This document shows positions 26 through 58,453 of a DNA stretch of 64,000 bases, piece after piece; the stretch's first letter is position 1; the number at the start of each line of letters is the position of its first letter. The notes below the pieces were generated by a model. That model was not told the origin of the DNA, did no database searches, and saw only the letters and a program-made list of their open reading frames with translations. The position numbers and the translations under genes were made by a program. The stretch lies in the NCBI GenBank assembly GCA_039583875.1, contig CM077166.1, forward strand, positions 82,706,564 to 82,770,563. Reading direction: 5' to 3'. The stretch is from Platanthera guangdongensis (Eukaryota > Streptophyta > Magnoliopsida > Asparagales > Orchidaceae).

Positions 26-2821
26 CTAGTGCTGATCAGGTTCTTTAATAACAATGCCTTTTCCAGCTTTAACTTGAGCTTTCACAGCAGCAGCAGCAGC
101 AGGCTCAGCTTCAGCAGTCTTCTTCCCTTTTAGATCTTTCTTCTTCTGTTCTTCAGCCTTGATCTTTTGCCTTTCAAAATAATGATAAGGCTTAGGAAAG
201 TACTTGCTAGGCTCCACAGCTGTGGGAGGTAGCTTTCCTAACTTGGCCTTCCTTCTATGTTGGACAATGGCTTCTTGCCTACTTTCATGCTTTCTCCATT
301 CAGCCTCTGAGAACCACTTGTTCCTCTCATGGGCATTGTCCTTGGCTGCTTTCCAGGCTGTAAGAATTATGTTCCTAGAAGTAGGGCTCCATTGTTCAAA
401 ATCTGGCTTTTGCTCAGCAATTTCCCTAAACTTCTTCTTTGACAGCCTAGTTTCTTCTTCCTTGTCCAAAGCCTCTTGCATTGCAGCTGTGATAGGTTGA
501 ACAACCTTTTCCAAAATAACAGTTGGCTTGCCAGCAAGTGGACTATACATAGTGCTTATATCTGCATGAATCATTTCAAAGTCTGGAGGTGGATAGATTA
601 CATCAGCCACTGCTTGTTGCTCACCTCCAAGATATGTTCCTTGAATACCAGATTCAGCCACTTCATTGTCATCACACAGGGGAGGATATCCAAGTGTAGC
701 CCTTATAGAATTTGAAATCCATTTTGCATGCTCAGAACTGGCCTTGACTAACACTCTCTCCCCCTTTATGACTTCTTGAGCCATATGATCCCTTACATCA
801 TCTTTCTGAAATCTGATTTGGCTATCCAAATATCTTATGCCCTCTTTAAAGAAAGGTCTAAGCTTTGTAAGCTGTTCTGATATGACCTTCTGGGAATCTG
901 TTATGGCATTCTTTACAGCAGCAAGCTCTGCTTGAAATAGCTTATCAAAATCAGCTTTGGCAGCAGCAGATGAAGTTGAAGGTTCATCTGACTTATTCTT
1001 GATTTCAGTGACTATTGCATTGTGAGATGCAGTCAAGTTATCATTCATCCTCAACTGATTCTCTAGCACATAGCCTTGTTTGACTGCTATATCATCCACT
1101 TTCTCTTTAATAGTTTCTTGATGTTTAGCCAGATATACCACAGCATGAGCCCCCTTTGTAAAACAATCAGTCATCTCCTGTTTATTAAGGTTCATTTCAA
1201 ACCTTATGGACTTGATTTCCTGGCCCAGATCAGATTGTAGAGCTTTGTGTCCTTCATCCACATATGTTTCCAAAGCCTTTCTTTGTTCATCCATCTTGAT
1301 TTGCAAGGCAAGCAATAGAGAACTATAATCAGTGGATGGAGCTTGTTGAACTAATGAATGTTGAGCAACAGTTTGAAGAGCCTTCTTATAGCTCTGGCTC
1401 CTTCTCTTGAATACAAAGAACTTCTTTTTCTGAGCTTGCTCAGCTTCATCATCTTCAGATTCAGATGTACTTGCTATATCCACCCTATCCTTAGGGCTGG
1501 ATGGTTTTTCAGTATGCACATCTTGTGCCTTCTCAGAATCTAGCCTTATAGGCTCTTCCTCAATTTCCATGTTCTCCCCCTCAGCAGCAGCATCCTTTCC
1601 TGTATCAGCAGTATTCTTTTCCATATCAAAATCTTCTTGATCTAAGTTCAAAAACAGATCTTCCATGGTATACTCTGCTGGAGTCTGTGCAGGAGATGTA
1701 CTTGGTTCTTCAACCACTTGATCAGGTACCACAACAGATGTGTCTGGAAGAACAACATCTGGTTCTTGGTTTTCTGGCTGATTTTGCTGAGGTTCATCAG
1801 ACAAATCAGAATTTGTTACAGAAAAATTCAAAGTGTTAAGATCAACAAGTACCTCTTGAATGAGGAGGGTGGCTTGTTCACTCTCCAGGGTAGATAGTTC
1901 TGCTACACCTGGAAGCTCCCCCTGGATGTCAGCTGCCTCCTGAGGAGCAGGTGTCTTTTCTGCAGCCACATCAACTGGAGTTTCAGGAGTGAAGACCACA
2001 TGTTCTTCACTGCCTGAGCTGCTGGAGGTCTCTTGAGGCACAGCAGCTATCTTCCTCTTCTTCCTGGGAGGAGAGTCTCTCTTAGAAGTTTGTTTCTCAG
2101 GGGTGGCCAAGTCCTTTGACACCAGCACCCTTTCCCATCTTGAGAATATCCTTGAGTCCATTCTCCTCATGTGATTGATCTTTGTTCCTGCTGCAGAGCT
2201 CATTACCTCTGGAATGGATCCAGCCAGGTAGAGACTTATTATCCTGCCCAGATTGGGCTTCTTCAGGCTTTCTTTTATTTTCTCATAAACCACCATTGAC
2301 CAATCTGTCTTCAGAGTGAAGATGATTCTGGTCATGACTTCAAACATGGAGGCAGACACCCTGTCATGCCCTCCTGGTTTGCTCAGGATTACCTTGCCCA
2401 CTACTTCAGACAAGAACTTGCCTTGATTGTTCATCCCCTTCCTGTTGAAGACTGATCCCACCTTCATTTTTGGATCCAGGCCACACCAAGTAAGAGCTTC
2501 CCTGGTCTTGGAAGCAGTTACCTCCTCTTCTTCTTGAATCTTAGGTAGCTGAAGTACCTTTCTTAAAGACTTGGGGGATAGTTTGACTTTGGTGCCATGC
2601 ACCCTTGACTTAATCCTGAAGCCTGAGTCATCTATAGACGCGCCTGAAAGGAATTCAATGACTTCCTTCTTCCAGATTTTTGTTGGTTCTGAAACCAAGA
2701 ACTCCAAGCCTGAATTGGCAATTAGGGTTATCACTGTTTTGAATTCCTGATCGCTGTCGTCGAATGCGCCTCGCACGAGCTCATAGCCCTCGTTGACATT
2801 CTCTTCCAGCTTGGGAGCCAT
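26..2821 (-). CDS. E1 env-like (third) ORF, 931 aa
   Basis: This is an intact ORF downstream of pol, in the position of the env-like gene of SIRE-type copia elements. I take the ATG at 2821 because E4 and E7 env-like ORFs begin at the equivalent place; the frame stays open 67 codons upstream, but that stretch is mostly palindrome spacer. A conserved N-terminal domain covers about residues 1-235 and resembles a domain widespread in plant transposon proteins. It is followed by an acidic Ser/Pro/Glu-rich region (about 240-490), a long region of probable coiled coil (about 520-720), and a Lys-rich C-terminus ending in GKGIVIKEP. I see no signal peptide, no hydrophobic membrane span and no cysteine-rich ectodomain, so 'envelope' is a positional label only. 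Its biochemical function is unknown. A TATA box lies 100 bp upstream of the ATG. Confidence 0.85.
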   Translation of the reverse strand: MAPKLEENVNEGYELVRGAFDDSDQEFKTVITLIANSGLEFLVSEPTKIWKKEVIEFLSGASIDDSGFRIKSRVHGTKVKLSPKSLRKVLQLPKIQEEEEVTASKTREALTWCGLDPKMKVGSVFNRKGMNNQGKFLSEVVGKVILSKPGGHDRVSASMFEVMTRIIFTLKTDWSMVVYEKIKESLKKPNLGRIISLYLAGSIPEVMSSAAGTKINHMRRMDSRIFSRWERVLVSKDLATPEKQTSKRDSPPRKKRKIAAVPQETSSSSGSEEHVVFTPETPVDVAAEKTPAPQEAADIQGELPGVAELSTLESEQATLLIQEVLVDLNTLNFSVTNSDLSDEPQQNQPENQEPDVVLPDTSVVVPDQVVEEPSTSPAQTPAEYTMEDLFLNLDQEDFDMEKNTADTGKDAAAEGENMEIEEEPIRLDSEKAQDVHTEKPSSPKDRVDIASTSESEDDEAEQAQKKKFFVFKRRSQSYKKALQTVAQHSLVQQAPSTDYSSLLLALQIKMDEQRKALETYVDEGHKALQSDLGQEIKSIRFEMNLNKQEMTDCFTKGAHAVVYLAKHQETIKEKVDDIAVKQGYVLENQLRMNDNLTASHNAIVTEIKNKSDEPSTSSAAAKADFDKLFQAELAAVKNAITDSQKVISEQLTKLRPFFKEGIRYLDSQIRFQKDDVRDHMAQEVIKGERVLVKASSEHAKWISNSIRATLGYPPLCDDNEVAESGIQGTYLGGEQQAVADVIYPPPDFEMIHADISTMYSPLAGKPTVILEKVVQPITAAMQEALDKEEETRLSKKKFREIAEQKPDFEQWSPTSRNIILTAWKAAKDNAHERNKWFSEAEWRKHESRQEAIVQHRRKAKLGKLPPTAVEPSKYFPKPYHYFERQKIKAEEQKKKDLKGKKTAEAEPAAAAAVKAQVKAGKGIVIKEPDQH

Positions 2822-2847
2822 TAGGGTTTGGAGATTGAGTCTTGAGA

Positions 2848-3305
2848 TGAGAGAAATGTCGACACAAGAGTTTAGGTCTCGAAACTTTGAAAGCGTGTCG
2901 ACAATCAAAGACAGAACCCTATTTATACCTTTCTTGTTTGAAGACGAACAGGCGGGATGAATTTCTAATAATGTGTCGACACTGTCAATAAGTGTCGACA
3001 CTGACTTATAATGTCTCGACACTCATGTGTCGACACAAATTTAGTCAACAGATTTTATGTGTCGACACTTGGTTAAGTGTCGACACCACTATACTCGACA
3101 TGTGTCGAGACTTTACTTAGAAAAATTCTGAGTAAAACTTAAGTGTCGACACATTATTGGATGTGTCGACACCTACTCGACATGTGTCGACACTAACATT
3201 CTGAAGTGTCGACACAAACTTCCTAGATGTGTCGACACCATTTTTCTGAAGTGTCGACACTTACTATTCTGTGTCGACATAGACTTGTCTATGTGTCGAC
3301 ACCTT
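2848..3305 (-). repeat. E1 pol/env spacer array of GTGTCGACAC palindromes
   Basis: About 15 perfect or one-mismatch copies of the 10-bp palindrome GTGTCGACAC lie between the pol stop (3335) and the env-like ATG (2821). Start positions I read include 2973, 2992, 3013, 3027, 3059, 3077, 3143, 3163, 3184, 3206, 3229, 3251, 3271 and 3293. Neighbouring steps are mostly 18-23 bp. The same motif fills the E1 LTR. Confidence 0.9.
2921..2928 (-). promoter_or_regulatory. TATA box of a probable internal promoter for the E1 env-like ORF
   Basis: On the minus strand the sequence reads GGTATAAATAGGG, a strong plant TATA box. It lies 100 bp before the env-like ATG and directly downstream of the palindrome array. 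E4 has the same box at the same distance (22035-22042, ATG 21935). E8 has one at 58446 and E7 a degenerate one near 41126. Promoter activity is inferred, not shown. Confidence 0.6.
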
Positions 3306-3334
3306 TTTACTTAGCCAATTTTTGTTCTGTATAC

Positions 3335-6300
3335 TTAGTCTAAGTTTATCATACCTAGTTCAATTTTGAACCTATTAAACTTAGCTTCTTCTAAGGGCTT
3401 AGTGAACATATCAGCTATCTGATTATCTGTTTTAACATATTCAAGTGCAATATCATTTCTTTCTACATGCTCCCTAAGAAAGTGATATTTTATCTCAATA
3501 TGTTTAGTTCTACTATGTGATACATGGTTATTAGCTATGGAAATAGCACTAGTAGAATCACAATAAAGTGGAGTTCTACTTACCTGACATCCATAGTCTT
3601 CTAGCTGATGTTGAATCCACAGAAGTTGAGCACAGCAACTTCCTGCAGCTACATATTCTGACTCAGCTGTGGAGATGGCCACACTGGTTTGCTTCTTACT
3701 ACTCCATGAAATGAGTCTTCCACCTAGGAATTGACAGGATCCAGTAGTGCTCTTTCTATCTTCTTTGCATCCTGCAAAGTCTGCATCTGAATAACCTGTT
3801 AGATCAAAATCTCCATTCCTAGGGTACCAGAGGCCTAGATAAGGTGTGCCCTTTAGATATCTCAAGATTCTCTTGACTGCAGTCAAGTGAGACTCTTTAG
3901 GGCAGGCTTGATACCTGGCACAAACACATGTAGCATACATAATGTCAGGTCTACTTGCAGTCAAGTAAAGTAGGGAGCCAACTATCCCTCTATACAAGGT
4001 TTCATCCACAGGTTTCCCTGCATCATCCTTGCTTAGAGACATACTTGACCCCATAGGAGTCTTCATGGTACTGGAGGAATCCATACCATATTTCCTTATG
4101 AGTTCTAGGGTGAACTTAGACTGACATATGGATAATCCACTTTCAGTCTGTTTAACTTGGAGACCCAAGAAAAACTTCAGCTCTCCCATACTACTCATTT
4201 CAAATTGACTCTGCATAAGCTTTGCAAACTTTTTGCAAAGGCTACTTTCAGTAGACCCAAATATAATGTCATCTACATATATTTGGACAAGTATTACTTT
4301 GCCTCTAGATTCCCTAAGGAATAGAGTCTTATCTATTTTCCCCCTTGTGAACTTGTTCTCAATGAGGAAACTAGATAGGGTTTCATACCAAGCTCTAGGA
4401 GCTTGCTTTAACCCATACAATGCTTTCCTAAGTCTATAGACATAATGTGGAAGAGTAGGATCAACAAAACCTGAAGGCTGCTCCACATATACTTCTTCTT
4501 TTAAATTACCATTAAGGAATGCTGACTTCACATCCATTTGGTATACTTTGAATCCTTGGTAGGTTGCATAGGCCAAGAACATCCTGATGGCTTCCAGTCT
4601 GGCTACTGGAGCAAAGGTTTGATCAAAATCAATACCTTCTTCTTGCCTATATCCTTTTGCAACCAATCTTGCCTTATTTTTAATGATGACTCCTTGTTCA
4701 TCTAACTTGTTTCTGTAGATCCATTTTGTTCCTATCACATTGTGATCTTTAGGCTTAGGAACTAAGTCCCAAACCTTGCACCTCTTGAACTGGTTTAGCT
4801 CTTCTTGCATAGCTTCAGTCCACTGTGGATCTTGTATTGCTTCTTCAAATTTCTTTGGTTCTATTTGAGACAGAAAACTTGAATATACTGCTGCATTCTG
4901 ATTTCTGCTCCTTGTCTGAACACCTTGTCTTGGATCTCCAATGATCAGCTCCACTGGATGATCTCTTAGATGCCTGTTGGCTGGAGGCATCCTTACTTCT
5001 GGTTGTACTTCTTCAGCATCTTCATTATGCTGAGTTCCTTGTACTTCTTCAGCTTCTGGTACATGTAGTTCTCCCCTGGACATGAGCCATCTTCTTCTTC
5101 TTGCTGTCTTGCAGCAGGTACATCTTCCATGGTTAGCTTGTCCATCTTCTTAGAAAGACCTGAGGGGCTGCACACACTACTAGACAACTCATTGTTAATT
5201 AGTTGTGACTCATCAAAAACTACATGCACAGACTCCTCTACAACTTGTGTAGTCAAGTTGTAGACTCTATAAGACTTACTATTACTGCTGTACCCAACAA
5301 ACACTCCCTCTTGGGATTTGGCAGCAAACTTAGTTAAGTAAGTCTTCCCATTGTTAAGTATGAAGCATTTACAACCAAAAATCCTGAAATAGGATAGATT
5401 TGGTTTCCTGCCTTTCACTACTTCATAAGGGGTCTTGTTTAACCTTTTAGTGATGGTAGCCCTATTTATCACATGGCATGCAGTGTTTACTGCTTCAGCC
5501 CAGAAATATTCTGGCAGTGATGAATCACTTAATAGAGTTCTACCAGCCTCAATCAAGGTTCTATTTTTCCTTTCAGCAATGCCATTTTGCTGAGGTGTTC
5601 TAGGTGAAGAGAATTCTTGAAATATCCCATAGTCTTCACATAATTTTGTCATGCTTTCAGATTGAAACTCTGTACCATGGTCACTTCTAATTTTGACCAC
5701 TGTACAGTTTAATTCATTCTGAATTTGCTTAACAAAACTGTGGAAGACACTAGGTGTTTCAGATTTCTGCTTTAAGAAGAACACCCAGGAAAACCTTGAG
5801 TAGTCATCAACAACTACAAAGGTGTAGACCTTCCTACCTAAGCTGTGAACTGGCATTGGACCAAATAGATCCATATGCAAGAGGTATAAACACCTCACAG
5901 CATCCTTGTTGTCAATGCTTCTAAAGGTGGATTTAGTCTGCTTGCCCTTTTGACAAGCTGAGCAAATGCCATCTTTGACACACTTTACTTGAGGACCATT
6001 CCTCACTAACTCTTTACTAAAGAGTTTGCCAATAGTCTTGTAATTAAGATGAGCAAGCCTCTTGTGCCACTTGACACATTGAGAGACTGTCTCATCAGCT
6101 ACAAGACAAACTGGAGAACTATTGTTCTCAACCATAATGTCTAAACAATAGACATTTCTCTTCCTATAACCTGTCAAAATGATCTTTTGATCACTTGACC
6201 TCTTGATATGACAACCATTTTTAACAAATGAGATGTCATACCCTACATCACTTAATTGACTTATACTAATGAGGTTATGTTTCAAACCTTTAACATAAGC

Positions 6301-6501
6301 CACTTGAGTAATGGTAACAAGGTTAGAAGAAATGTTACCAAACCCTTTGATGATTCCTTTTTCAGAACCACCAAAGGTCACCTTTGGACCATTTTTGATA
6401 GGGATGTAGTCCTTCAGTAGTCCCCTAGTTCCAGTCATGTGTCTGGAACATCCACTATCCAAGTACCATGTAGGGGTATGGCCACTTGGATTCTCCTGCA
6501 A
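3335..6501 (-). pseudogene. pol: E1 copia pol (protease-integrase-RT-RNase H), one frameshift
   Basis: The polyprotein makes the element's DNA copy and integrates it. Reading from 6501: protease WYLDSGCSRHMTG near the start; GAG-pre-integrase HHCC (WHKRLAHLNY, then CSACQKGK); integrase core D-D-E ([27 protein letters not shown]); RT with [11 protein letters not shown] and the catalytic YVDDIIFGS; RNase H with [18 protein letters not shown] and CDSTSAIS, ending at 3335. The order integrase before RT defines copia. The frame breaks once, near 5075, where the integrase C-terminal linker leaves frame at a G-run (one base missing relative to E4). The rest is open, so this copy is one base from a full pol frame. 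There is no ATG at the pol start; gag ends in TAA at 6510-6508 in the same frame. Confidence 0.93.
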
Positions 6502-6507
6502 AACAAA

Positions 6508-8532
6508 TTAATGAACCTTAGAACCCAAAGTAAACTTGGGTCCTTGGTGATTGTTAGTTTGCAAATTGACATAGCTACCTGCTGTCTTTCCAACAGGTAA
6601 CTTGCTACTCAACTTGGCACTCACATTGTGCCAACAGTCCAAAGCAAAGTGGCCAATTTTGCCACAGCACCAACATTCAAATTTGTTGTACCTTTGCTTA
6701 GGTACAGACTTGGCTGTCTTAGTGAATGTTGGGGCTTTGCCCTTGGACTTGGACTGGTTCTGAACAGTCCTAGCTGGATTAACAAATCCCACTCCAGTCT
6801 TTCCTTTATGATGAACAAAGTCATCAATCAAGGGTAGCACTGATTTAGGTTTTGAAAACCTAGCTACTAGCTCTTTCTCCTTCTGAAGATTAATCTCCAG
6901 TTTCTTAATTTGATCATTCTTAAATGCAATGGTACCCATCTGAATCACAGTAATGTGTTTCAGCCTGGCCACTTCATTCAGTTTTTGATCATAATTCTTC
7001 TCATAATCTATTGCAGCTGCCTTGAGATCAGCAATTTCCTTAGCCAAATTTTTGGCTAGGGTCTTGCTTTTCTTATAGGCTTGCAATAGTACTTGATATT
7101 CATCTAGGAGTTGATGAATGTCACCCTCAGACTCAGATATATTCTCATCACTTGATGAAGAATACTCTGACTCTGAACTAGAACTGGAATCAGAACTTTG
7201 AGTTAAACCTTGTACCTGACTGGGTCCTGGCTGCTCCAGGTTTTTGGTACTTTCAGTCAAAGCCATCAGTCCTTGGCTTTGACAGTCTTCTTGCTCATAG
7301 ATAGATTCCATGATCTGCATGAACTCTTCTTCTTCTTCAGCAAATAGCCCAATATAGGCTTCAGCATCTTCATCAGTGTCTGAAGACGACATATCTGAGA
7401 GAGTCTTCTCATTCTTTGCAACAAAAGACTTCTCCTTCTTTCCTTTGAAGTGTGTTTTCTTCTTGTCACTGGATTCCTTCCTTCTTTCAGGACAGTCTGC
7501 AATAACATGGCCCTTTCTATTGCAGCAGTAACAAATTATCTTGGATCCAGTTCCCTTACTAGTCTTGGTCCTTTTCTTGTCCTTCTTTGAAGGCTTCTTT
7601 TCCTGATACTGAACCTCTTTCCCTTTGGAAGATGAAGGTCTAGACCTCCACTGTTTCTTCTTAAGGAACTTCTGAAAATGTCTGGTGAATGCAACAAAGT
7701 CTTCATCACTTTCACTGCTTGTAGATTTTGTACTTTCTGACTCTTCAGATTCTGATTCAACTACCTCAGGAGGAGGAGTTGATGACTTGGTCCTGCTCTT
7801 TCTGGGTACATCTGACTTAAAGGCAACAGTCTTTTCTCTGTATTCAGTCCTTGTTGACTTTTCTTCTTCTTTTCTCACTGACAATTGCATCTCATAAGAT
7901 AACAACTTGCCAAAAAGTGTGGGAGGAGGAATTTCTCCCAACTTTGCCATTTCTCTGATGGCACAGATCTTGGTGTCCCAGTCTTTGGTGAGGGACCTTA
8001 AGAATTTATCATTCAACTCATAGTTTGTGAACTCTCTTCCATATGACATGAGTTCATTTACAATTCTGTAAAATTTCTTATAGCATTCAGTGATGCTATC
8101 TCCTCTTCCTTGCCTAAAACTCTCATATTCTTGATTAAGCAAGGACTTCCTATCTTGCCTTACTTCTTCAGAACCTTCCATATAGACAATGAGGGTGTCC
8201 CACATTTCTTTTGCAGTTTTACAGTGAATAAGGTTCTGGAAGGTGGCATCATCAATTGCACTAACTATTATATTCTGTGCTCTTTTGTCCATGGTTGCTA
8301 GGACAATCTCATCCTTGGTCATTTCAGAGAAATCCTTTGGAGTCCTCTGATTTGCATCCAATACTGAAATCTTCATGGGCACATATGGCCCTTCTTTGAC
8401 TGTGATGTATATCCTAGGGTCAGAGGCTTCCATAAAAAGCCTAACCCTCTCTTTCCAGATCCCAAAGATCTCTTTTCTGCATATAGGTAGTTTCATTGAA
8501 CCCAACTCCTTATGATTCTCTAAAGAACCCAT
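6508..8532 (-). CDS. gag: E1 copia gag, 674 aa
   Basis: This is the structural capsid-nucleocapsid protein. The first 220 residues are the copia gag domain (UBN2 type), with the typical tract containing MWDTLIVYMEGSEEVR and the Leu-rich FLRSLTKDWDTKICAI. A CCHC knuckle CYCCNRKGHVIADC lies near residues 335-348 and a second, CWCCGKIGHFALDC, near 618-632. Between them is a Glu/Lys-rich probable coiled coil. The long gag with two knuckles fits the SIRE lineage. The ATG at 8532 follows the primer site by about 100 bp. The frame ends in TAA in phase with pol, leaving either stop readthrough or splicing for pol expression. Confidence 0.92.
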   Translation of the reverse strand: MGSLENHKELGSMKLPICRKEIFGIWKERVRLFMEASDPRIYITVKEGPYVPMKISVLDANQRTPKDFSEMTKDEIVLATMDKRAQNIIVSAIDDATFQNLIHCKTAKEMWDTLIVYMEGSEEVRQDRKSLLNQEYESFRQGRGDSITECYKKFYRIVNELMSYGREFTNYELNDKFLRSLTKDWDTKICAIREMAKLGEIPPPTLFGKLLSYEMQLSVRKEEEKSTRTEYREKTVAFKSDVPRKSRTKSSTPPPEVVESESEESESTKSTSSESDEDFVAFTRHFQKFLKKKQWRSRPSSSKGKEVQYQEKKPSKKDKKRTKTSKGTGSKIICYCCNRKGHVIADCPERRKESSDKKKTHFKGKKEKSFVAKNEKTLSDMSSSDTDEDAEAYIGLFAEEEEEFMQIMESIYEQEDCQSQGLMALTESTKNLEQPGPSQVQGLTQSSDSSSSSESEYSSSSDENISESEGDIHQLLDEYQVLLQAYKKSKTLAKNLAKEIADLKAAAIDYEKNYDQKLNEVARLKHITVIQMGTIAFKNDQIKKLEINLQKEKELVARFSKPKSVLPLIDDFVHHKGKTGVGFVNPARTVQNQSKSKGKAPTFTKTAKSVPKQRYNKFECWCCGKIGHFALDCWHNVSAKLSSKLPVGKTAGSYVNLQTNNHQGPKFTLGSKVH

Positions 8533-8630
8533 GTTCTTGATTTTCTTGAAACTGTTTCCTGTTTCCTGACTTATACTGAATCTGCCAAACAGGATCTCCT
8601 CAGACAGTTAGTCCTGATTTTGAGGAACCT

Positions 8631-8643
8631 CCCTCTGATACCA
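8631..8643 (-). promoter_or_regulatory. E1 primer-binding site (tRNA-Met initiator)
   Basis: The minus strand reads TGGTATCAGAGGG two bases inside the LTR edge. This is the standard complement to the 3' end of initiator tRNA-Met used by plant copia elements. Confidence 0.92.
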
Positions 8644-8665
8644 CTTGAAAGATATGGTACCTAAA

Positions 8666-8694
8666 CACCTAGAGGGGGGGGGGGTGAATAGGTG
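8666..8694 (-). other. C-run stem-loop near the E1 LTR end
   Basis: The arms CACCTA and TAGGTG flank a run of G on the plus strand (C in the element's RNA) followed by TGAA. E7 has the same loop with different, still complementary, arms. It lies about 25-50 nt upstream of the primer site in the RNA leader. Confidence 0.6.
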
Positions 8695-8934
8695 ACCTAA
8701 ACCTTTTTAACTTTTGTTTGGCAGCACAACAGTTTTTCACAGATTATTACAGTTAACAGCAATTACAGAAATCACACAGTAAAGCCACAACACAGCACAG
8801 CACAGCAGACACACTAATTTTATAGTGGTTCCCCAATCTTTGGGTACATCCACTTTCCCCCTTCGCCTATCTAGCAGTGTACTAGATTCGGCCAAACTTC
8901 TCCACTAGCTCAGAACCCAACAAGGTTCCTACCT

Positions 8935-9066
8935 CAGGCCCAAAGCCTTACACTCAGCCAAAAGGCCTACACTCAGCCACCCAGGCCTACACTCAGCCAA
9001 TCAAAGGCCTACACTCAGAGTTCTTCAACTCCTACACTCAGGCACCAAGCCCTACCCTCAGCCTTT
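8935..9066 (-). repeat. Short tandem repeats in the E1 LTR
   Basis: Five or six imperfect units built on GCCTACACTCAG, about 20-28 bp each. The same block occurs in both E4 LTRs (about 17150-17330 and 28000-28180). They lie downstream of the TATA box, so they would be transcribed. Confidence 0.7.
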
Positions 9067-9532
9067 ATAAAATAGGCTTACAATCACTCAGATCCAATGG
9101 ATCTTACAAGTTATAATAGAAATTATAAATGCTAACTCTACAACCCAGAAAAGATGAGAGGAGTTGAGAGTTTCTTGAAGAGTTCTTGGAAGAACTCAGC
9201 TTGATCCAAACTGACTTAGCTTTCTTCAAAGCTTCTTGAGTAGAACTGAATTAGTCTGAATCTTCTGCAGTTGATCCTTGATCTCTGCTTCTTGAAATCC
9301 AGATGACTCTGAATTCTTCTTCTCAGCCTTAGTTCCAAAGACTGAATCCTTGGTTGGAGCTCTCTCTCTCCAACTACTTAGATCTGCAGTTGGACTGCCT
9401 GATCTTCTTGTGTTGATCTTCTGTGTATCACTTCTTGATTAAGTCTGATCAACTACTTCAATTATTATCACACCATGTAATGATTGTGAACTTCTTAACA
9501 ACTACTCCTCTTCCACTTTAAACTGTGGGTGC

Positions 9533-9541
9533 CTATTTATA
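9533..9541 (-). promoter_or_regulatory. E1 LTR TATA box
   Basis: The minus strand reads CCTATAAATAGG. It lies about 130 bp downstream of the last palindrome of the LTR array, which places the array in U3 as upstream promoter sequence. E4 has the matching box at about 17728-17740 and 28578-28590. Confidence 0.65.
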
Positions 9542-9675
9542 GGCTTCCTTTATGGTAACCGGCTGATCCGGTTCATAACAGACTTCTGACATCTCTGACA
9601 GTTGCTGTCGACCGGCTGGATTGGCAGCTGTCATGTCAACCAGTCACTTCTTGAAATTCTGCTAACTGTCAGTTA

Positions 9676-10611
9676 GTGTCGAGACTTTCTGTTCTTAAGT
9701 GTCGACACTTATAGACCAAGTGTCGACACATGTTGTGTAAGTGTCGACACAAGTCTACAAGGTGTCGACACAATTCCTTGTATGTCTCGACACAGTTTCT
9801 TCTGCATGTGTCGACACTAAAATTGAGTGTCGACACAAGTACTTGTACTTCATTCTTTATCTGTTATTCTTCTAAGTGTCGACACATCTCCTTTGTGTCG
9901 ACACATGTTCATGTGTAGAAACTGTCAAGTGTCGACACTGCTTCTTGGTGTCGACACAAGTCTTCATTCTTGATTCTTCAGCTGAGTGTCGACACATTCC
10001 CTTAGTGTCGACACTTATACTTAGAATATTTTTTACAATTTCCTGTTCTTTGCTAAGTGTCGACACAGCTCCTTGTGTCGACACTTTCTTCAAGTGTAGA
10101 GTCTTCAACTAAGTGTCGACACATTGTGCTGAGTGTCGACACTTTCTTCAAGTGTTGAGTCTTCTGGTTGTGTGTCGACACATTGTACTGAGTGTCGACA
10201 CATTCTTCAAATACTAAGTCTTTAGCTAAGTGTCGACACATTGTGTTGAGTGTCGACACTTACTTCCAGTGCTGAGTCTTCTGCATAGTGTCGGCACACT
10301 GTGTTGAGTGTCGACACTTGTACTTAGAATCTGTAGACTTTTGCTGAGTGTCGACACTCACTTCAAGTGTCGACACTTTCTGATGTAGACACAGCTCTTC
10401 TGGGTGTCGACACTTCTGCTAAGTGTCGACACAGCTTTTCTGCATTCTTCTACACTGAGTGTCGACACAGCTCCAAGTGTCGACACTTTCTGACTGGTGT
10501 CGACTCTTCTTCCCAGGTGTCGACACAATGACTCCAAGTGTCGACACTGCATGTCTGGGTGTCGACACAAGCTTTCTCAAGTGTCGACACTTTGCCTCTG
10601 GGTGTCGACAC
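9676..10611 (-). repeat. E1 LTR array of GTGTCGACAC palindromes
   Basis: I count about 32 perfect copies of the 10-bp palindrome plus several one-base variants. Starts run as ladders, for example 9699, 9720, 9741, 9762, 9784, 9808, 9827, and 10459, 10477, 10497, 10517, 10538, 10559, 10581, 10602. Between 10057 and 10423 pairs about 20 bp apart recur every 56-60 bp, and the skipped third position holds a decayed site (AAGTGTAGAG, AAGTGTTGAG). The basic step is therefore about 19-21 bp. The core GTCGAC is a SalI site. Confidence 0.95.
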
Positions 10612-10756
10612 ATGGACTTAGAAATTTTCAGCTCCAGTCCAGTGTATATCTAACCTGCACAAGTAACTCAAACAAACATCAAATACATTCTGATGTATAT
10701 CATTGAGTTAGGTGAGGCTTCTTCAAATCAGGTACATTTGACCAATGTACCCAACA

Positions 10757-15715: not shown

Positions 15716-16883
15716 GCAGGTGGGTTGAGTTTCTTGGAGACTACGAGGTGGCGATTCAGTATACGCCAGGTAAAGCTAATGTGGTGGCGGATGCCTTGAG
15801 TAGGAAGTACTCGGGGCAAGGGAATTGGATCGAAGCTCATGATGAGCGGTTGGTACGGGAATGGGAGTCCCTTGGTTTGGAATGTGTTGCGAGAGGTGAG
15901 TTCGGCGTGGCTCGGTTGAACTGGATTGAAGTACAGAATGACTTGTCCGATCGCATTCGGGAAGCGACTCGGTTGGATGTGGATTTTCAACCATTTGTGT
16001 TGGAGGCTCAAACGGGCGAGAGCAGCGCCTGGGAGATGATTGATGGGATTCTGAGGAAGGACGGAAGGGTTTGTATACCGCAGTTCGGCAAACTCCGTGA
16101 GGAGTTGATGTTTGAGGCTCACTTCACAAAGTACTCCATTCACCCGGGCAGTACAAAGATGTACTTGGATATGAAGAAATCCTTTTGGTGGCCGAGGCTG
16201 AAGCGGGACGTAGCTTTGTGTATGAATCGTTGCCAGACTTGCGCCTTGGTGAAGGCCGAGTGTCAGAAGCTGGGCAGGTTCCTGAAGCCCCTTCCAATCC
16301 CTGAATGGAAATTTGATGACATCTCCATGGACTTCATTCATGGTTTGCCTAGATCGCAGTAGGGTAATGATGCTATTTGGGTGATCGTGGACCGCTTAAC
16401 CAAGGTGGCCCACTTCATCCCAAATCGAAAAGAGGACAGCGTGGAGAAGCTGGTGGAGTTGTATGTTCGCAATATTGTGCGGCTGCATGGGATTCCAAAG
16501 AGTATAGTCAACGATCGAGATGGACGGTTTACGTCCAAGGACTGGAGACTGGTTCAAAAGAGTTTGGGCACGAAGCTGAAGTTCAGTACGACGTTCCATC
16601 CTCAAACTGATGGGCAAACTGAAAGAACGAACCGTACTATGGAGGATATGTTGAGAATGTGCGTTCTTGACTTCGGCAAGAAGTGGGAGGATCACCTCTT
16701 CATGGTGGAATTCGCGTACAACAACAGTTTTCAAGCAAGTATAAAAATGACGCCATATGAAGCTTTGTATGGGAGACGATGTCGAACACCGATGTCTTGG
16801 GCAGAGGCGGGAGACACCAAAATTTTGGGAAAGGAGGTGGTAGTTTACGCTTGTGATATGGTACAGACCATACAAGAGCGTAT
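15716..16883 (+). pseudogene. pol: E3 pol, RNase H end and integrase (first part)
   Basis: The frame starts mid-RNase H (EFLGDYEVAIQYTPGKANVV, then ADALSRK), cut by E2. Then come the integrase zinc domain (H..H, then NRCQTCALVKAE) and the catalytic core with D in IVDRLTK, D in NDRDGRF and E in NRTMEDML. One in-frame TAG at 16360-16362 interrupts the start of the core, between GLPRSQ and GNDAIWV, so this copy cannot make an intact integrase. The frame then runs open to the E4 insertion at 16883 and continues at 29675 with the usual integrase C-terminal sequence. Confidence 0.9.
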
Positions 16884-18817
16884 TGAAAGAAATTGTACCT
16901 AATCACCTAGAGGGGGGGGGGGTGGTGAATAAGTGACTTTAATCTTTATAAATGTTTAGGCAGATTTAATCACAGGTTTCACAGAATATACAACAACAAC
17001 CACAGAAGCATACACACACAGAGTACACACAGTTTTATAGTGGTTCCCCAAGGTCTGGGTATATCCACTTTCCCCCTTTGCCTATCTAGTAGTGTACTAG
17101 ATTCGGCCAAACTCCTCCACTATTCATCAGATCCTCAGATCTTACACTCAGAACCCCAACCAGGTTCCTACAACTCAGGCTCAAGGCCCTACCACTCAGT
17201 CTTCACCAAGACCTACACTCAACCTTCAACAAGGCCTACACTCAGCCCTCAACAAGGCCTACACTCAGAGAAATCAATCTCCTACACTCAGGCACACAGG
17301 CCCTACCACTCAGCCTTTATAATTTCAGGCTTACAACTCAGATCCCTAAGGATCCTACAAGAAATTAAGATTACAAAGTATAAACATACAACTCAGAATA
17401 AGAGAGAAGAGTTGATAGGTTTCTTGATGAGTTCTTGGAAGAACTCTGCTGAGATCAACCTCCCTTGGCTTCCTTCAAAGCTTCTTGAATGTAGAACACA
17501 TTGGGGTTGATTCTCTATGCAGCTGATCTTCAATCACTGCAACTTAAGATTCAGATCTCAATCTGAAACCTTCTTCACAGCCTAGTTCAACAGATGTCTT
17601 CTTGGAAGGAGCTCTCTCTCTCTCCAACTACTTAGATCTTCACTTGAATTGATTCTTCAATGAATTGCTTGATCTATTTTTCAATCCTCTTTGATGTGTT
17701 AATCATCTTCTGTTGTTGACAGAATAAGCCTTTATATAGGCCTTCTTCATGGTGACCGGCTGATCCGATTTCTAACGACTTTCTGACAACTCTGACAGTT
17801 GCAGTAGACCGGCTGGAATGACAGCTATCATGTCATCCAGTCACTTCTTGAATTTTCTATAACTGTCTGAAAGTGTCGAGACAGTCTGTCTTTAAGTGTC
17901 GACATAAGTAGACTAAGTGTCGACACTAGCCTTCATGGTGTCGACACAACTCCTTGTGTTGTAGAAATTACTTCTCGACACAGCTTCTTCATCATGTGTC
18001 GACACTGATAATGTGTGTCGACACAACTCCTTGTTCTTCAGTACTTTGTTGATTTCTTGTAAGTGTCAACACAACTCCTTTGTGTCGACACATCTTCTTG
18101 TGTTGAACTTGTTAAGTGTCGACACATCTTCTTGGTGTCGACACATGCCTTCTATTTTGATACTTTTGCTGAGTGTCGACACATCTGCTTGGTGTCGACA
18201 CTTGTACTTAGACTTCATTGAAATTTGCTGAGTGTCGACACAGCTCCTTGTGTCGACACTTTCTTCATGTGTTAAGTCTTTTGCTGTGTGTCGACATATT
18301 CTTCATTATGTCGACACTTGTACTTAAACTCTGTTGAAGTTTGCTGAGTGTCGACACAGCCTCCTAGTGTCGACACTTGTACTTGAATATTGTTGTTGTT
18401 TTGCTGAGTGTCGACACAGCCTCCTAGTGTAGACACTTTCTGATGTCGACAAAGTTCCTCTGGGTGTCGACACTGCTTCTAAGTGTCGACACAGCTTCTC
18501 TGGACATTTCTTCATTGAGTGTCGACACAGCCTGTATGTGTCGACACTTTCCTTCTGGTGTCGACTCTGCATCCCTGGTGTCGACACAATTACTCCAAGT
18601 GTCGACAATGCTTCTCTGGGTGTCGACACAAGTCTTCTTAAGTGTCGACACTTTTCTTCTGGGTGTCGACACATGGACTTAGAATCTTTTAAGCTTTCCC
18701 TGCAATTACTTAACCTGCATAAGGTAACTCAAAACACATCAAATACATTTTGATGTATATCATTGAGTAGGGTGAGGCTTCTTCAAATCAGGTACATTTA
18801 TTCCAATATACCTAACA
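16884..18817 (-). repeat. E4 3' LTR, 1934 bp
   Basis: TG..CA ends. On the minus strand it is preceded by the polypurine tract AAATAGGGGGAGAT (18818-18831). It holds the palindrome array (17873-18671), a TATA box near 17728-17740 and a C-run hairpin (16903-16936). It differs from the 27732 copy mostly by substitutions and by module-sized indels in the array. Confidence 0.94.
17873..18671 (-). repeat. E4 3' LTR palindrome array
   Basis: More than 25 GTGTCGACAC sites or one-base variants spaced about 20 bp or multiples, collinear with the E1 array. Several sites are decayed by CpG-type changes, for example GTGTCAACAC near 18065. Confidence 0.93.
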
Positions 18818-19035: not shown

Positions 19036-21935
19036 TTATAGAGAGTTTAAAATCAAATGATTACACAAAGTAAACTTAAGAAAAATTCTATCATATTGCT
19101 GCTCAGGCTCCTTGATCACAATGCCCTTTCCAGATTGTATCTTTGCTTGGACAGGAGCTTCAGTATCTTCATCAGCAGCAGGCTTCTTTCCTTTAAGATC
19201 CTTCTTTTTCAAATCTTCAGCTTTGATCTTCTGCCTTTCAAAGTAATGATAAGGCTTAGGAAAGTACTTGCTAGGCTCCTGCGCATTAGGAGGTAGCTTT
19301 CCCATATTAGCCTTTCTTCTATACTGCACAATGGCCTCTTGCCTTGTCTCATGCTTCCTCCACTCCAGTTTAGAATACCACTTGTTTCTATCCTGGATAT
19401 TGTCCTTGGCAGCCTTCCATGCAGTTAAAATGATATTCCTGGAGGTGGGGCTCCATTGTTCAAAATCAGGCCTAAGTTCAGCTTGCTCTCTGAACCTTTT
19501 CTTAGATAATGCAGTCTCTTCTTCATTCAGCAAAGCCTCTTGTTCTTTCAAAATTGCCTCTGGCACTGGCTGAACAACTTTCTCAATAATGACATTCTGA
19601 ATTCCTTTAGGAGGACTATACATTGATTGTATGTCTTGATATATCATATCAAAATCTGGTGGAGGGTATATCACTTGAGCAACTTCAGCTGGCTCCCCTC
19701 CAAGATATGCAGGATTAATTCCAGACTCTGCCACATTATCATCATCACATAATGGAGGATATCCAAGGGTGGCTCTGATGGAATTTGAAATCCACTTTGC
19801 ATGATCAGAGCTGGCTTTGACTAACACCCTCTCCGCCTTTATGGCTTCTCTTTCAATGTGATCTCTTAGATCATCTTTCTGGAATCTTATCTGTGCATTC
19901 AGATAATTTACTCCATCCTTGTAGAAAGGTTTCAACCTTTGTAGCTTTTCAGTTATTAACTTCTCGGAATCCTGAAGTGCAGAAGTAACAACAGTTAAGC
20001 TCTCTTACAATGCTTTGTCAAATTCTTCTTTTGCAGTGGTCATGGCTGTAGTCTGACCAGTAACTATATTCTTCATTTCTGGTACTATTGCATTGTGTGA
20101 AGCAGTGAGATTGTCATTCATTCTCAGCTGGTTCTCCAGGACATAGCCTTGCTTCACTGCAATTTCATCCACTTGAGCTTTGATCTTCTCTTGATGAGTT
20201 GCTAGATAGACTACTGCATTTTCTCCCTTTTAAAAGCAGTCAGTCATCTCTTTCTTATTCAGATTCATTTCAAATCTGATAGACTTAATATATTGTGCCA
20301 GATCAAATTTCAATGACTTATGCCCTTCATCCATATAAGATTGCAAAGCCTGTCTTTGCTCATCCATCTTTATCTGTAATGTAACCATCAGAGAGCTGAA
20401 ATCTGTAGATGGGGCAGGCTGTGGTGCAGGCTGTGGTGCTATTGTTTGTAAAGCTTTCTTATATGTCTGGCTCCTTCTCTTGAAAACTTGAAATTTTCTC
20501 TTCTTGGCTCTTGCAGGCTCTTCATCTTCAGAAGCAGATGTGCTTGCAATATCAACCCTGTCCTTAGGACTTGGAGGTAACTCCTTCTCAGTCCTTGGTG
20601 GTTGCTCAGCTTCCTTTTGCTACTCAATCTCTTTGCCTGCAGTGTCCTCTATATTCTCCACTTGCTCCCCCTCAACATGAGCTTTCTCCCCCTCAGCAGC
20701 AGCACTTTCTTTCTCAAAGTCAGTTTGTAGAAGATTTGGGAATAGCTCTTCTAGGGTAAATTCTTGTTGAGGATGGGGTGGAGAAACTCTTATCTCATCA
20801 ACAACTTGATTAGCAACAGATGTGTCTTCCATGACAACATCTTGGGGTTGGCTATGTGTTTGTGTTTGCTGAGTAACATTAGGTAATCTGTCAGTCATAT
20901 CTTCATTTACAATAGAGAAATCTAATTGGTTGATTTCAGTTATTACCTCAAGTATTGTGTGGGTAGCTTGTTCACTCTCTAGTGGAGTTGGTTCTTCCAC
21001 CAGTAGAGGCTCCCCCTGGATGGAATCTAGGTTAACTGGGCTAGCTTGTGGTAGCTCCCCCTGCCTTGATGCATCTTCTTGTCTAGCAGGTGATTGGCCA
21101 GCATTTCCTGTATCTTCTTCATCATGAGTGAACACTACATGCTCTTTAGAGCTGCTTGATGATTCTTGAGCCACAGGGGCTGTCTTTTTCTTCTTCTTCA
21201 GAGGTGTTTCCTTCTCAGGAGTTGGCATTTCCTTGGTCAAGACTCTATCCCACCTAGAGAAGATTCTCAAATCCATTCTCTTCATATGGTTAATCTTAGT
21301 TCCAGCTGCTTGACTCATGACCTCTGGTATACTACCACCTAGGTAAAGACTTAGAATTCTACCAATATTGGGCTTCTTCAAACTCACTTTATCTTCTCAA
21401 ACAATACTGCAGACCAATCAGTATTAAGTTGGAAGATTAACCTTGTCATTAGATTGAACATATAAGCTGAAATCCTGTCATGTCCTCCAGACTTACACAG
21501 GATAACCTTGCCAACAATCTCAGATAAGAATTTGCCTTGCATGTTCATTCCTTTTCTATTGAATACAGATCCTATCTTCAGGTTGGAGTCCAGTCCACAC
21601 CATGTTAGTGCTTCTCTAGTCTTAGAAGCAGAAACATCATCTTCTTCCTTAGTCCTTGGTAGTTGCAGTACCTTTCTCAGACTCATAGGAGAGACCTTCA
21701 CCTTTTCCCCATGAACTCTTGACTTAATCTTGAGTCCTGATTCATCTAGTGTTGCTCCATTCAGAAATTCCAGGACTTCCTTCTTGCAGATCTTAATTGG
21801 TTCTGAAACAAGAAATTCTAATCCAGTCTCTGCGATTAGGGTTATCACGCCTTTGATATCAGGTTCCGCGTCATCAAATGCGTGGCACACGAGTTCATAT
21901 CCTTCATTCACATTCTCTTCTAGCTTGGGCGCCAT
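19036..21935 (-). pseudogene. E4 env-like ORF, broken
   Basis: It is homologous to the E1 env-like ORF from its MAPKLEENVNEG start (ATG at 21935) to the GKGIVIKEP tail near 19110. The N-terminal domain is open to about 21384, where the frame shifts. A second open stretch runs to about 20620 and ends at a stop, followed by shifted or stopped coiled-coil sequence, and the last 300 residues are open (19935-19036). Conserved parts match E1 closely, including the SEP(T/I)KI(W/C)KKEV block and the C-terminal KPYHYFERQKIKAE block. No signal peptide or membrane span is seen in this copy either. Confidence 0.88.
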
Positions 21936-22006: not shown

Positions 22007-22424
22007 GCGTGTCGACAGACAAAGGCAAAAACCTATTTATACCTTTCTAGAATCGAAGATTAAAGGGCGCGTCAAAATACTCAAATTGTTTCGACACTGT
22101 TGAAAAGTGTCGACACAGACTTATAATATCTCGACAACTATGTGTCGACACAAGTATAGTCGACAGAATATATGTGTCGACACTTGTTTATGTGTCGACA
22201 CCGCTTAGCTCGACACTTTGTCAAGACTTTACCAGACTAATGTTGAGTAAATCCTAAGTGTCGACACCACCTTAGATGTGTCGACACCTACTATTTATGT
22301 GTCGACACTAATTCTCTTAAGTGTCGACACAGACTGTCTAGATGTGTCGACACCATTTCTCTGAAATGTCGACACCACTTTTATGTGTCGACACAGGCAA
22401 CTCTGTGTGTCGACACCTTTTTAC
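22007..22424 (-). repeat. E4 pol/env spacer palindrome array
   Basis: About a dozen GTGTCGACAC sites and variants sit between the pol end (22443) and the env-like ATG, in the same position as in E1. Steps are again near 20 bp. One degenerate site near 22010 lies between the TATA box and the ATG, as in E1. Confidence 0.88.
22035..22042 (-). promoter_or_regulatory. TATA box of the probable E4 env-like promoter
   Basis: The minus strand reads AAAGGTATAAATAGG. The distance to the ATG at 21935 is 100 bp, identical to E1 although the flanking sequence has diverged. Confidence 0.6.
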
Positions 22425-22442
22425 TTAGCCAATTTTGAAAAC

Positions 22443-27729: not shown

Positions 27730-27731
27730 CT

Positions 27732-29669
27732 TGAAAGAAATTGTACCTAATCACCTAGAGGGGGGGGGGGGGTGGGGTGAATATGTGACTTTAATTTTTA
27801 TAAACTTTTAGGCAGATTTAATCACAGATTTCACAGAACATACAACAACAACCACAGAATCATACACACACAGAGTACACACAGTTTTATAGTGGTTCCC
27901 CAAGGTCTGGGTTCATCCACTTTCCCCCTTCGCCTATCTAGTAGTGTACTAGATTTGGCCAAACTCCTCCACTATTCCTCAGATCATCAGATCTTACACT
28001 CAGAACCCCAACCAGGTTCCTACAACTCAGGCTCAAGGCCCTACCACTCAGTCTTCACCAAGACCTACACTCAGCCTTCAACAAGGCCTACACTCAGCCC
28101 TCAACAAGGCCTATACTCAGGGAAATCATTCTCCTACACTCAGGCACACAGGCCCTACCACTCAGCCTTTATAATTTCAGGCTTACAACTCAGATCCCTA
28201 AGGATCCTACAAGAAATTAAGATTACAAAGTATAAACCTACAACTCAGAATAAGAGAGGAGAGTTGACAGGTTTCTTAATGAGTTCTTGGAAGAACTCTG
28301 CTGAGATCAACCTCCCTTGGCTTCCTTCAAAGCTTCTTGAATGTAGAACACAGTAGGGTTGATTCTCTATGCAGCTGATCTTCAATAACTGCAACTTAAG
28401 ATTCAGATCTCAATCTGAAACCTTCTTCACAACCTGGTTCAACAGCTGTCTTCTTGGAAGGAGCTCTCTCTCTCTCCAACTACTTAGATCTTCACTTGAA
28501 TTGATTCCTCAATGAATTGCTTGTTCTATTTTTCAATCCTCTTTGATGTGTTAATCATCTTCTGCTGTTGACAGAATAAGCCTTTATATAGGCCTTCTTC
28601 ATGGTGACCGGCTGATCCAGTTTCTAACGACTTTCTGATAACTCTGATAGTTGCAGTAGACCGGCTGGAATGGCAGCTGTCATGTCATCCAGTCACTTCT
28701 TGAATTTTCTGTAACTGTCTGAAAGTGTCGAGACAGTCTGTCTTTAAGTGTCGACACTGATAGACTAAGTGTCGACACAAGTAGACTAAGTGTCGACACT
28801 AGCCTTCATGGTGTCGACACAACTCCTTGTGTTGTAGAAATTACTTCTCAACACAGCTTCTTCATCATGTGTCGACACTGATAATGTGTGTCGACACAAC
28901 TCCTTGTTCTTCAGTACTTTGTTGATTTCTTGTAAGTGTCGACACAACTCCTTTGTGTCGACACATCTTCTTGTGTTGAACTTGTTACGTGTCGACACAT
29001 CTTCTTGGTGTCGACACATGCCTTCTGTGTTGATACTTTTGCTGAGTGTCGACACATCTGCTTGGTGTCGACACTTGTACTTAGACTTCATTGAAATTTG
29101 CTGAGTGTCGACACAACTCCTTGTGTCGACACTTTCTTTATGTGTTAAGACTTTTGCTGTGTGTCGACACATTCTTCATTATGTCGACACTTGTACTTAA
29201 ACTCTGTTGAAGTTTGCTGAGTGTCGACACAGCCTCCTAGTGTCGACACTTGTACTTGAACTTTGTTGTTGTTTTGCTGAGTGTCGACACAGCCTCCTAG
29301 TGTCGATACTTTCTGATGTCGACAAAGTTCCTCTGGGTGTCGACACTGCTTCTAAGTGTCCACACAGCTTCTCTGGACAATTCTTCATTGAGTGTCGACA
29401 CAGCCTGTATGTGTCGACACTTTCCTTCTGGTGTCGACTCTACATCCCTGATGTCGACACTGCTTCTCTGGGTGTCGACACAAGTCTTCTTAAGTGTCGA
29501 CACTTTTCTTCTAAGTGTCGACACATGGACTTAGAATCTTTTGTGCTTTCCCTGCAATTACTTAACCTGTACAAGGTAACTCAAAATACATCAAATACAT
29601 TTTGATGTATATCATTGAGTAGGGTGAGGCTTATTCAAATCAGGTACATTTATTCCGATGTACCCAACA
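27732..29669 (-). repeat. E4 5' LTR, 1938 bp
   Basis: TG..CA ends, ending CCCAACA against the target duplication CATAT. Palindrome array 28723-29523, TATA box near 28578-28590, CTCAG repeats 28000-28180, C-run hairpin 27751-27788. The array differs from the 3' LTR by loss or gain of whole units of about 21 bp. Confidence 0.94.
28723..29523 (-). repeat. E4 5' LTR palindrome array
   Basis: Collinear with 17873-18671. It has one extra 21-bp unit near 28757-28777 and one fewer unit near 29445-29465 relative to the 3' LTR. Confidence 0.93.
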
Positions 29670-48491: not shown

Positions 48492-48496
48492 AATGC

Positions 48497-58445: not shown

Positions 58446-58453
58446 TATAAATA
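58446..58453 (+). promoter_or_regulatory. TATA box upstream of the E8 env-like ATG
   Basis: GGGTATAAATAAAAC lies about 115 bp before the ATG at 58566. The spacer upstream contains ACTCGACGCAA (58321), which recurs in the E8 LTR (61448). Confidence 0.5.

Follow-up and report, generated by a model that had tools for sequence, protein, structure and literature searches.

Palindrome arrays shared between the LTR and a putative internal env-like promoter in orchid Sirevirus-type elements

The question of the role and expression of the Sirevirus env-like gene goes back to 2002 or earlier (work cited in PMC2829016). A window of Platanthera guangdongensis DNA (contig CM077166.1; the whole stretch analysed, 64,000 nucleotides) puts it in concrete form: do the short palindromes that occupy both the LTR and the pol/env spacer of its elements belong to two promoters under one factor? 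In the reading we prefer, with a probability of about 0.68, the spacer would be an internal env-like promoter built on the same family-specific palindrome as the LTR enhancer, one factor would drive both, and methylation of the arrays would be the off-switch. Palindrome arrays in Sirevirus LTRs and upstream of ENV were described earlier, with an internal promoter favoured and none conclusively identified (Bousios 2010, PMC2829016). Because layout and idea were published in 2010, the "conserved circuit" that an earlier note drew from this DNA is a known proposal, although its observation of paired placement with different motifs per family stands and genome copies agree with it.

Placement and constraint of the palindrome arrays

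The elements have the order of Ty1/copia: in E1 integrase precedes reverse transcriptase (by eye) with the env-like ORF downstream, and in P0006, a relative from Platanthera zijinensis, the Pfam order is rve, RVT_2, Transposase_32. A C-run lies close to the end of the 5'LTR of E7, where we looked for the polyC-rich integrase signal that Sireviruses have at the 3' end of the LTR (PMC2829016). Motif clusters upstream of the LTR TATA box are present in E1 and E4 (E7 has the LTR array only), and motif copies upstream of ENV in E1, E4 and E7, being absent from E8. The CGG-CCG core is replaced by TCGA cores; since it was published for only 12 of 13 motifs, with Tnd-1 an exception, it is not required for membership (PMC2829016).

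Table 1. Positions of the array, promoter-like and coding features in the window.
Element	Feature	Position	Strand	Remarks
E1	env-like ORF	26..2821	-	931 aa; N-terminal domain resembling Transposase_32; basic motif RKKRK; hydrophobic helix not found
E1	spacer TATA box TATAAATA	2920..2927	-	106 bp upstream of env-like ATG 2821
E1	spacer array, GTGTCGACAC	2973..3302	-	between pol stop and env-like ATG; ≤1-mismatch count over 2825-3334
E1	5'LTR	8646..10756	-	99.67% identity with own 3'LTR outside the window
E1	LTR TATA box TATAAATA	9534..9541	-	
E1	LTR U3 palindrome array	9699..10611	-	
E4	3'LTR	16883..18817	-	array 17917-18672; TATATAAA at 17738
E4	env-like gene, first open piece	21384..21935	-	183 aa, Transposase_32-like; gene broken further downstream
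E4	spacer TATA box TATAAATA	22034..22041	-	106 bp upstream of ATG 21935
E4	spacer array	22107..22416	-	≤1-mismatch count over 21935-22442
E4	5'LTR	27731..29669	-	array 28748-29524; TATATAAA at 28590
E7	3'LTR	36498..38102	-	TTCGTCGA/TCGACGAA array
E7	spacer array	41196..41424	-	TATATCTA ~91 bp upstream of env-like ATG
E7	third array, gag tail	44844..45070	-	not preceding any known promoter
E7	5'LTR	46881..48492	-	TTCGTCGA/TCGACGAA array
E8	spacer TATA box TATAAATA	58446..58453	+	120 bp upstream of env-like ATG 58566; without array

The window contains 103 exact copies of GTGTCGACAC, the palindrome of family A (E1 and E4), where a first-order model predicts 0.022; no other perfect palindromic 10-mer is as common (the runner-up has 5 copies). 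All but the copies at 30458 and 30695 fall within five blocks (101 of 103): E1 spacer 12, E1 LTR 32, E4 3'LTR 22, E4 spacer 11 and E4 5'LTR 24. With up to one mismatch, E1 holds 36 copies in the LTR (counted from 8533, the edge later being placed at 8646), 17 in the spacer and none in pol, gag or the part of env inside the window; E4 holds 30 in each LTR, 14 in the spacer and none in env, pol or gag; 10 more lie in the rest of the window. The E1 3'LTR, directly beyond the window edge, likewise carries 36 copies. The claim that family A arrays are confined to U3 of the LTR and to the spacer between pol and env is thus borne out. Spacings within four arrays (E1 spacer, E1 LTR, E4 spacer, E4 5'LTR) are 18-23 in 58 of 87 cases and 36-42 in 16, and no period near 10.5, as helical phasing would give, stands out among these 87. 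TCGAC-rich repeats were also seen within other repeats of the window, at 30325-30720, 49329-49531 and 54768-54942.

E7 (family B) carries an unrelated motif in the LTRs, the spacer and, as the earlier note had also stated, the gag tail. Its half-sites number, at up to one mismatch, 16 in each LTR, 16 in the spacer and 14 in the gag tail, with none in env, pol or the gag body; a half-site is 8 bases long, and the window outside E7 holds 57 at that threshold and 2 exact. Half-sites are paired as TTC[G/A]TCGA-N7-TCGACGAA in six cases, and in five of these the arms are perfectly palindromic. The gag-tail array weakens the motif as a marker of promoters only.

Motif position across further family members, a check suggested in the earlier note, gave the same picture: spacer arrays are present at 30/30 family A and 29/30 family B loci, and the stretch upstream is array-free at all 30 of each. 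The loci read came from 139 scored of 105,408 first-look candidates (family A) and 150 of 84,598 (family B); all are close relatives of the query, and they are not independent, because the window's own copies are included and the env-like domain is 98-100% alike among family A copies. Where no in-frame ATG lay at the expected distance in family B, an ATGGC match or a fixed offset served to place it. Past the ATG, 2 motif copies occur at one family A locus and 1 or 2 half-sites at a few loci of family B. Family B locus L047, which lacks a spacer array and by eye has reverse-transcriptase-like sequence immediately upstream, was scored as a miss and excluded from the family B alignment.

Tandem-repeat noise, or recent recombination copying the LTR array into the spacer, might produce such a pairing, since tandem repeats are detected in both places and the E1 spacer matches the LTR at 76% of 160 aligned positions. 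Against this, the linkers have diverged and the motifs have not: between E1 and E4, motif columns of the spacer are identical at 160/170 positions versus 237/335 for the rest (p 1e-10), and LTR motifs at 305/320 versus 330/466 for array linkers (p 6e-20). The contrast is gone between the two LTRs of the single E4 insertion (283/290 versus 476/489; p 1), and motif-flanking bases differ between spacer and LTR. We consider this origin highly improbable, and the apparent motif conservation, absent from the post-insertion control, is new here.

Also new are nearly CpG-free coding regions next to CpG-rich arrays. Observed/expected CpG is 0.00 in E1 pol+gag (1 CpG in 5,198 bp), 0.03 for E4 and 0.03 in E7 pol; it reaches 1.15-1.76 in the spacers, 0.78-1.25 in LTR arrays and 1.02 in the E8 spacer, which is without palindromes. 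Since most CpGs of the elements lie in or around arrays, CG methylation there could act as a natural off-switch. Post-insertion CpG transitions point to less decay in the motifs of E4 (2/32 versus 4/7 elsewhere; p 0.006), with no such contrast in E7 (6/25 versus 8/25; p 0.75).

The spacer TATA box and a candidate internal promoter

The earlier note placed a second TATA box before the env-like ATG of family A, and TATAAATA is indeed found there in both E1 and E4. It lies at -105 or -106 in 30/30 family A loci and recurs in E8, within a block, AGAA(G/A)GGTATAAATA, that E1, E4 and E8 have in common amid otherwise diverged sequence. Across the window, TATAAATA lies at -135..-90 from 0.36% of positions on the + strand and 0.65% on the - strand. 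This conserved box, at 106 bp in E1 and E4 and 120 bp in the distant E8, is new here. Another conserved non-motif run of E1 and E4, 20 bases near the pol end, exceeds the TATA block in length. The Platanthera zijinensis gene model P0005 has GINR...VDTL...MAPK at the corresponding place, which would be the reading expected from translated GGTATAAATAG.

The cassette of array plus TATA box is not confirmed in E7, where a perfect TATAWAW[AG] is missing from both LTRs and from the 300 bp preceding the ATG, the spacer having TATATCTA instead. E8 has its TATA box as claimed, and no palindrome array was found in its spacer; the motif said to be common to its spacer and LTR, ACTCGACGCAA, is a single copy in each, and an 11-mer in common with that LTR turns up in 24% of 1000 surrogate spacers, so we rejected it as chance-level.

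An internal promoter is well supported in family A by the TATA box common to E1, E4 and E8, and more weakly in E7. We propose that a factor recognising a dyad, GTGTCGACAC in family A and TTCGTCGA-N7-TCGACGAA in family B, would find many sites in LTR and spacer, and once bound would co-activate genomic RNA from the LTR and a short env-like mRNA from the spacer TATA box, with the ATG 106 bp on. The paired palindrome probably lets one protein switch on both genes. A single, hypothetical DNA-binding factor, as put forward in the earlier note, is a fair deduction.

The env-like protein could instead come from a spliced or read-through mRNA, the spacer array marking a boundary of chromatin or methylation, or supplying siRNAs. 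Aligned family B copies keep a splice-acceptor-like TTCTTGCAG/GT right before the ATG, so their env-like mRNA could be spliced, and P0005 and P0006 join pol directly to the env-like sequence, as though bridging a predicted intron. Stop-codon suppression is known from SIRE1 (cited in PMC2829016), and maize Sirevirus LTR palindromes are reported as small-RNA hotspots (PMC10760457, PMC5311732). Such a scheme leaves unexplained why TATAAATA sits at a near-fixed distance in E1, E4, E8 and all 30 family A loci, and we think it improbable.

The internal-promoter model is weakened by family B, with its gag-tail array, its splice-acceptor-like site and no canonical TATA box; by the TATA block not being the longest conserved non-motif run; by a CpG-decay contrast in E4 and not E7; and by the E8 box without an array, together with six ENV-containing Sireviruses reported without the boxes (PMC2829016). 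It is supported by arrays restricted to U3 and spacer, motif constraint, the TATA block of E1, E4 and E8, CpG concentration and env-like dN/dS. The conserved TATA box and the LTR-shared enhancer motif make it directly testable.

The env-like protein and candidates for the factor

The E1 protein is read as a divergent Transposase_32 relative: PF20167 scores 24.3 bits (E 3e-5) in E1 and 31.4 in the best relative, neither reaching the curated cut-off of 45 bits. No membrane-spanning segment emerged from a simple, untrained hydropathy scan of this protein (top 19-residue mean 1.17); in its relatives P0003, P0007 and P0009 some windows exceed 1.6, and on our reading of the models these fall beyond the env-like domain. 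This combination in an env-like protein, similarity to Transposase_32 and a basic motif like an NLS, with a membrane helix looked for and not found, is new here, and the protein looks nuclear rather than envelope-like. At the sequence level it is evidently held under purifying selection (E1 versus E4 dN/dS 0.07-0.27, dS saturated); gag dN/dS is undefined because dS is saturated.

The earlier note's VANC parallel gains some support from this nuclear look and from a fold that the protein may share with VANC21 (PDB 9lnj); remote profile comparison is suggestive of kinship with the VANC DNA-binding domain. Against the parallel, DUF1985 (PF09331) was not among the matches listed (25 of 26 families, 11 env-like proteins, E ≤ 10, HMMER filters on). 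The genome's sole weak DUF1985 match (L001; 7.6e-5, under the cut-off) is by eye not a Sirevirus env-like gene. Compared with PDB sequences, the full-length E1 protein gave one match, at E 0.46, and a pol search of viral_contigs for other plant elements gave none.

The two main candidates for the factor are versions of our preferred reading. A host transcription factor driving both promoters, with the env-like protein doing another job, is about an even bet. Among 13 array-bearing Sireviruses, four have no ENV and still carry LTR arrays, and PLACE searches gave mainly stress-related plant sites (PMC2829016); the TCGAC-rich repeats elsewhere in the window also favour a host factor. Motifs that differ radically between families of one genome speak against it, being a better fit to coevolving element-coded factors. 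To our knowledge no plant factor for GTGTCGACAC has been described, which also counts against a host protein.

The second candidate, somewhat less likely, is VANC- or Tas-like self-control, in which a nuclear env-like protein would bind the palindromes of the LTR and of its own promoter and activate or unsilence its family. The ENV-less Sireviruses show that LTR arrays cannot always need their own env-like protein, and together with the ENV-containing ones without boxes that the pairing is not universal (PMC2829016). A stronger form, that the Sirevirus "envelope" is a VANC-type DNA-binding regulator which, bound to the family palindrome in the LTR and at its own TATA promoter, keeps the CpG-rich parts unmethylated in an element that is CpG-poor elsewhere, in a self-reinforcing anti-silencing loop coevolved with the motif in each family, we regard as doubtful.

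Comparison with known systems

In foamy viruses Tas is itself a product of the internal promoter, which makes a feedback loop of the kind suggested for the orchid elements. There too LTR and internal promoter are under one factor, with Tas binding to both reported, whereas our factor is only proposed and homology is not claimed (PMC8670036, PMC4929722). SIRE1 of soybean is a Sirevirus with its env-like gene likewise downstream of pol. The closest likeness in layout is to the Sirevirus RM boxes as described in PMC2829016, which are palindromic, family-specific and multicopy, precede the TATA box of the LTR, cluster before ENV, are associated with CpG islands and led to the same internal-promoter hypothesis; they differ in their CGG-CCG core, the Vitis motif CGGTCGACCG being nearest to our TCGA cores, and the spacer TATA box of E1, E4 and E8 and the gag-tail array of E7 are additional here. 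The 3' additional ORF of Athila likewise follows pol, resembles Transposase_32 and has a nuclear localisation signal, but Athila is a Ty3/gypsy element, and palindrome arrays are not among the features described for it in PMC11728184.

VANDAL transposons and their VANC proteins share with the orchid elements short motifs in fast-evolving non-coding repeats, homologous proteins with family-specific motifs and possibly a fold (PMC5735166; PDB 9lnj). They differ in being DNA transposons, in having DUF1985 and in that the VANC motifs described are not palindromes; binding and methylation loss were shown there, whereas the orchid elements are known from sequence alone (PMC5735166). If the env-like protein were a VANC-related binding factor, plant retrotransposons would possess element-coded anti-silencing, as VANDAL DNA transposons do, and the label "envelope" would be wrong for a very abundant group of them.

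Palindrome arrays in LTRs and spacers

The window lies at C20:82706564-82770563 in a genome of 4.25 Gb. E1 and E4 (family A) and E7 (family B) are Sirevirus-type copia retrotransposons on the minus strand, and E8 consists of the plus-strand remains of a distant element that keeps an env-like start. The E1 insertion is young, since an alignment of its two LTRs over 2,113 bases shows 5 differing positions and one gap. When the env-like protein was used as the query, ten orchid proteins were recovered, of which nine belong to Platanthera zijinensis and the other to P. guangdongensis; in one search, scoring was limited to the 7,989 candidates with most words in common. A gypsy-like stretch that starts at the E1 LTR edge holds a pair of direct repeats, each 967 bp long and 99.6% identical to the other, and E7 has inserted into a ~2.9 kb repeat, a second copy of which (91-95% identical) is also present.

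The palindrome GTGTCGACAC occurs 103 times in the window, against 0.022 expected, and 101 of these copies are inside the LTRs and the spacers (between the pol stop and the env-like ATG) of E1 and E4. Allowing up to two mismatches, none was found in the gag, pol or env of either element (the E1 env was covered as far as it lies in the window). The equivalent role in the E7 LTR and spacer is taken by TTCGTCGA/TCGACGAA, which is also present in the gag tail; in E7, six pairs form gapped palindromes whose arms stand 7 bases apart, and five of these are perfect. Among loci taken from genome searches, 30 per family, all close relatives and each set including the window itself, 16 or 17 spacer motif copies were present in 30/30 family A loci, and spacer arrays in 29/30 of family B. 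The 980 bases upstream held no motif in any of the 30 family A loci, and the upstream stretch held no array in any of the 30 family B loci. The earlier note had described one array placed at both the LTR and an env-like promoter, and this pairing is real and mostly as described.

Because TCGAC/GTCGA-rich tandem repeats, for instance with the 14-base unit AATCGTCGAGCGGA, sit in other repeats of the window, TCGA-core arrays may be a broader theme in the P. guangdongensis genome.

Positions and CpG counts of features in the window
Feature	Position	Description
GTCGACACGCT	2892-2902	half-palindrome
TTCTTGCAG/GT	41047-41055	splice-acceptor-like
E7 third palindrome array	44844-45070	gag tail; perfect TTCGTCGA-N7-TCGACGAA copies; precedes no known promoter
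Direct repeats	10756-11722, 14749-15715	in gypsy-like stretch
E7 target repeat, parts	34872-36500, 48491-49787	
E7 target repeat, second copy	52322-55199	
TCGAC/GTCGA-rich tandem repeats	30325-30720, 49329-49531, 54768-54942	
E1	26-10620	75 CpGs counted within this stretch, 58 of them in spacer or LTR array
E1 gag+pol	3335-8532	1 CpG per 5,198 bp
E4 gag+pol	22443-27730	6 CpG per 5,288 bp
E7 gag	45373-46746	2 CpG per 1,374 bp
E7 pol	41723-43945	3 CpG per 2,223 bp
Gypsy-like stretch		293 CpG per 5,606 bp

The spacer TATA box and the env-like start

In both E1 and E4, TATAAATA lies 106 bp upstream of the env-like ATG, and it is found at -105 or -106 in 30/30 family A loci. E8 has it at -120, and though this element is much more distant, its env-like start is recognisably that of the same protein (BLASTP 2e-11). 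AGAA(G/A)GGTATAAATA is common to all three. Around the TATA box E1 and E4 have diverged, with 23/39 positions identical in the array-to-TATA linker and 62/96 in the 5' leader; their longest identical run outside the motifs, 20 bases, is near the end of pol, and the TATA block is shorter. About 25 bp past the start of the spacer TATA box, E1 and E4 share the half-palindrome GTCGACACGCT, which is close to the predicted transcription start. A P. zijinensis gene model has VDTL at this place, which would fit GTCGACACGCT.

The combination of array and TATA box, which had been extended to E7, does not hold there: its LTRs contain no perfect TATAWAW[AG], and its spacer has TATATCTA instead. This sequence is kept in 29 aligned family B loci (mean identity 90%), and a perfect TATAWAW[AG] is present in the spacer of just 1/30. 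Directly before the family B env-like ATG is TTCTTGCAG/GT, kept in sister loci, and it is possible that the env-like mRNA of this family is spliced. The motif said to be common to the spacer and LTR of E8 is at chance level.

Motif constraint and CpG content

Between E1 and E4, 160/170 motif columns of the spacer are identical (columns defined from E1 alone), compared with 237/335 for the rest. The LTR array gives 305/320 for motif columns and 330/466 for linkers, with column sets that are unions over both sequences. The E4 LTR pair serves as a post-insertion control, because its two LTRs have diverged only since insertion, and it shows no contrast (motif 283/290, other 476/489). In these alignments, the motif conservation has the pattern of constraint during the transposing phase of the lineage.

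The gag and pol regions hold almost no CpGs, unlike the gypsy-like stretch, and the env-like regions are CpG-sparse as well (E1 9, E4 10, E7 21). Arginine in E1 gag and pol is encoded by AGA/AGG only (in pol, 33, with CGN 0). Either the CpG-poor body was long methylated and eroded with the arrays kept, or CpG was avoided. After insertion, 2/32 motif CpGs in E4 decayed, compared with 4/7 of its other CpGs; E7 showed no such contrast (motif CpGs 6/25, others 8/25). The palindromes are not the sole source of CpG richness, since the E8 spacer is without an array yet CpG-rich (27 in 636 bp).

Comparison with known Sireviruses

Sunflower SIRE elements are reported to show a strong drop of CG methylation across the element middle (PMC12844716), later studies in maize that concern LTR palindromes and small RNAs are cited in PMC10760457 and PMC5311732, and MASiVEdb describes the Sirevirus env-like gene as perhaps not a true envelope. 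Within the accessible text of one open-access literature collection, descriptions turned up neither of a spacer TATA box, nor of Transposase_32 (the domain that the env-like protein resembles) in Sireviruses, nor of a link to VANC, the VANDAL transposon proteins proposed as a parallel. Of greater interest is whether the factor that would act on both promoters could be the env-like protein itself.

According to Bousios (2010; PMC2829016), 13 Sireviruses carry palindromic repeated motifs. These form clusters in the LTR, on the upstream side of its TATA box, and their sequences differ from family to family. Nine of the 13 have ENV, with motifs upstream of it as well, and six additional Sireviruses with ENV are without repeated motifs. 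An internal promoter was discussed there but not conclusively identified. That a single array could serve two promoters has already been proposed in print, and family A adds the missing TATA box.
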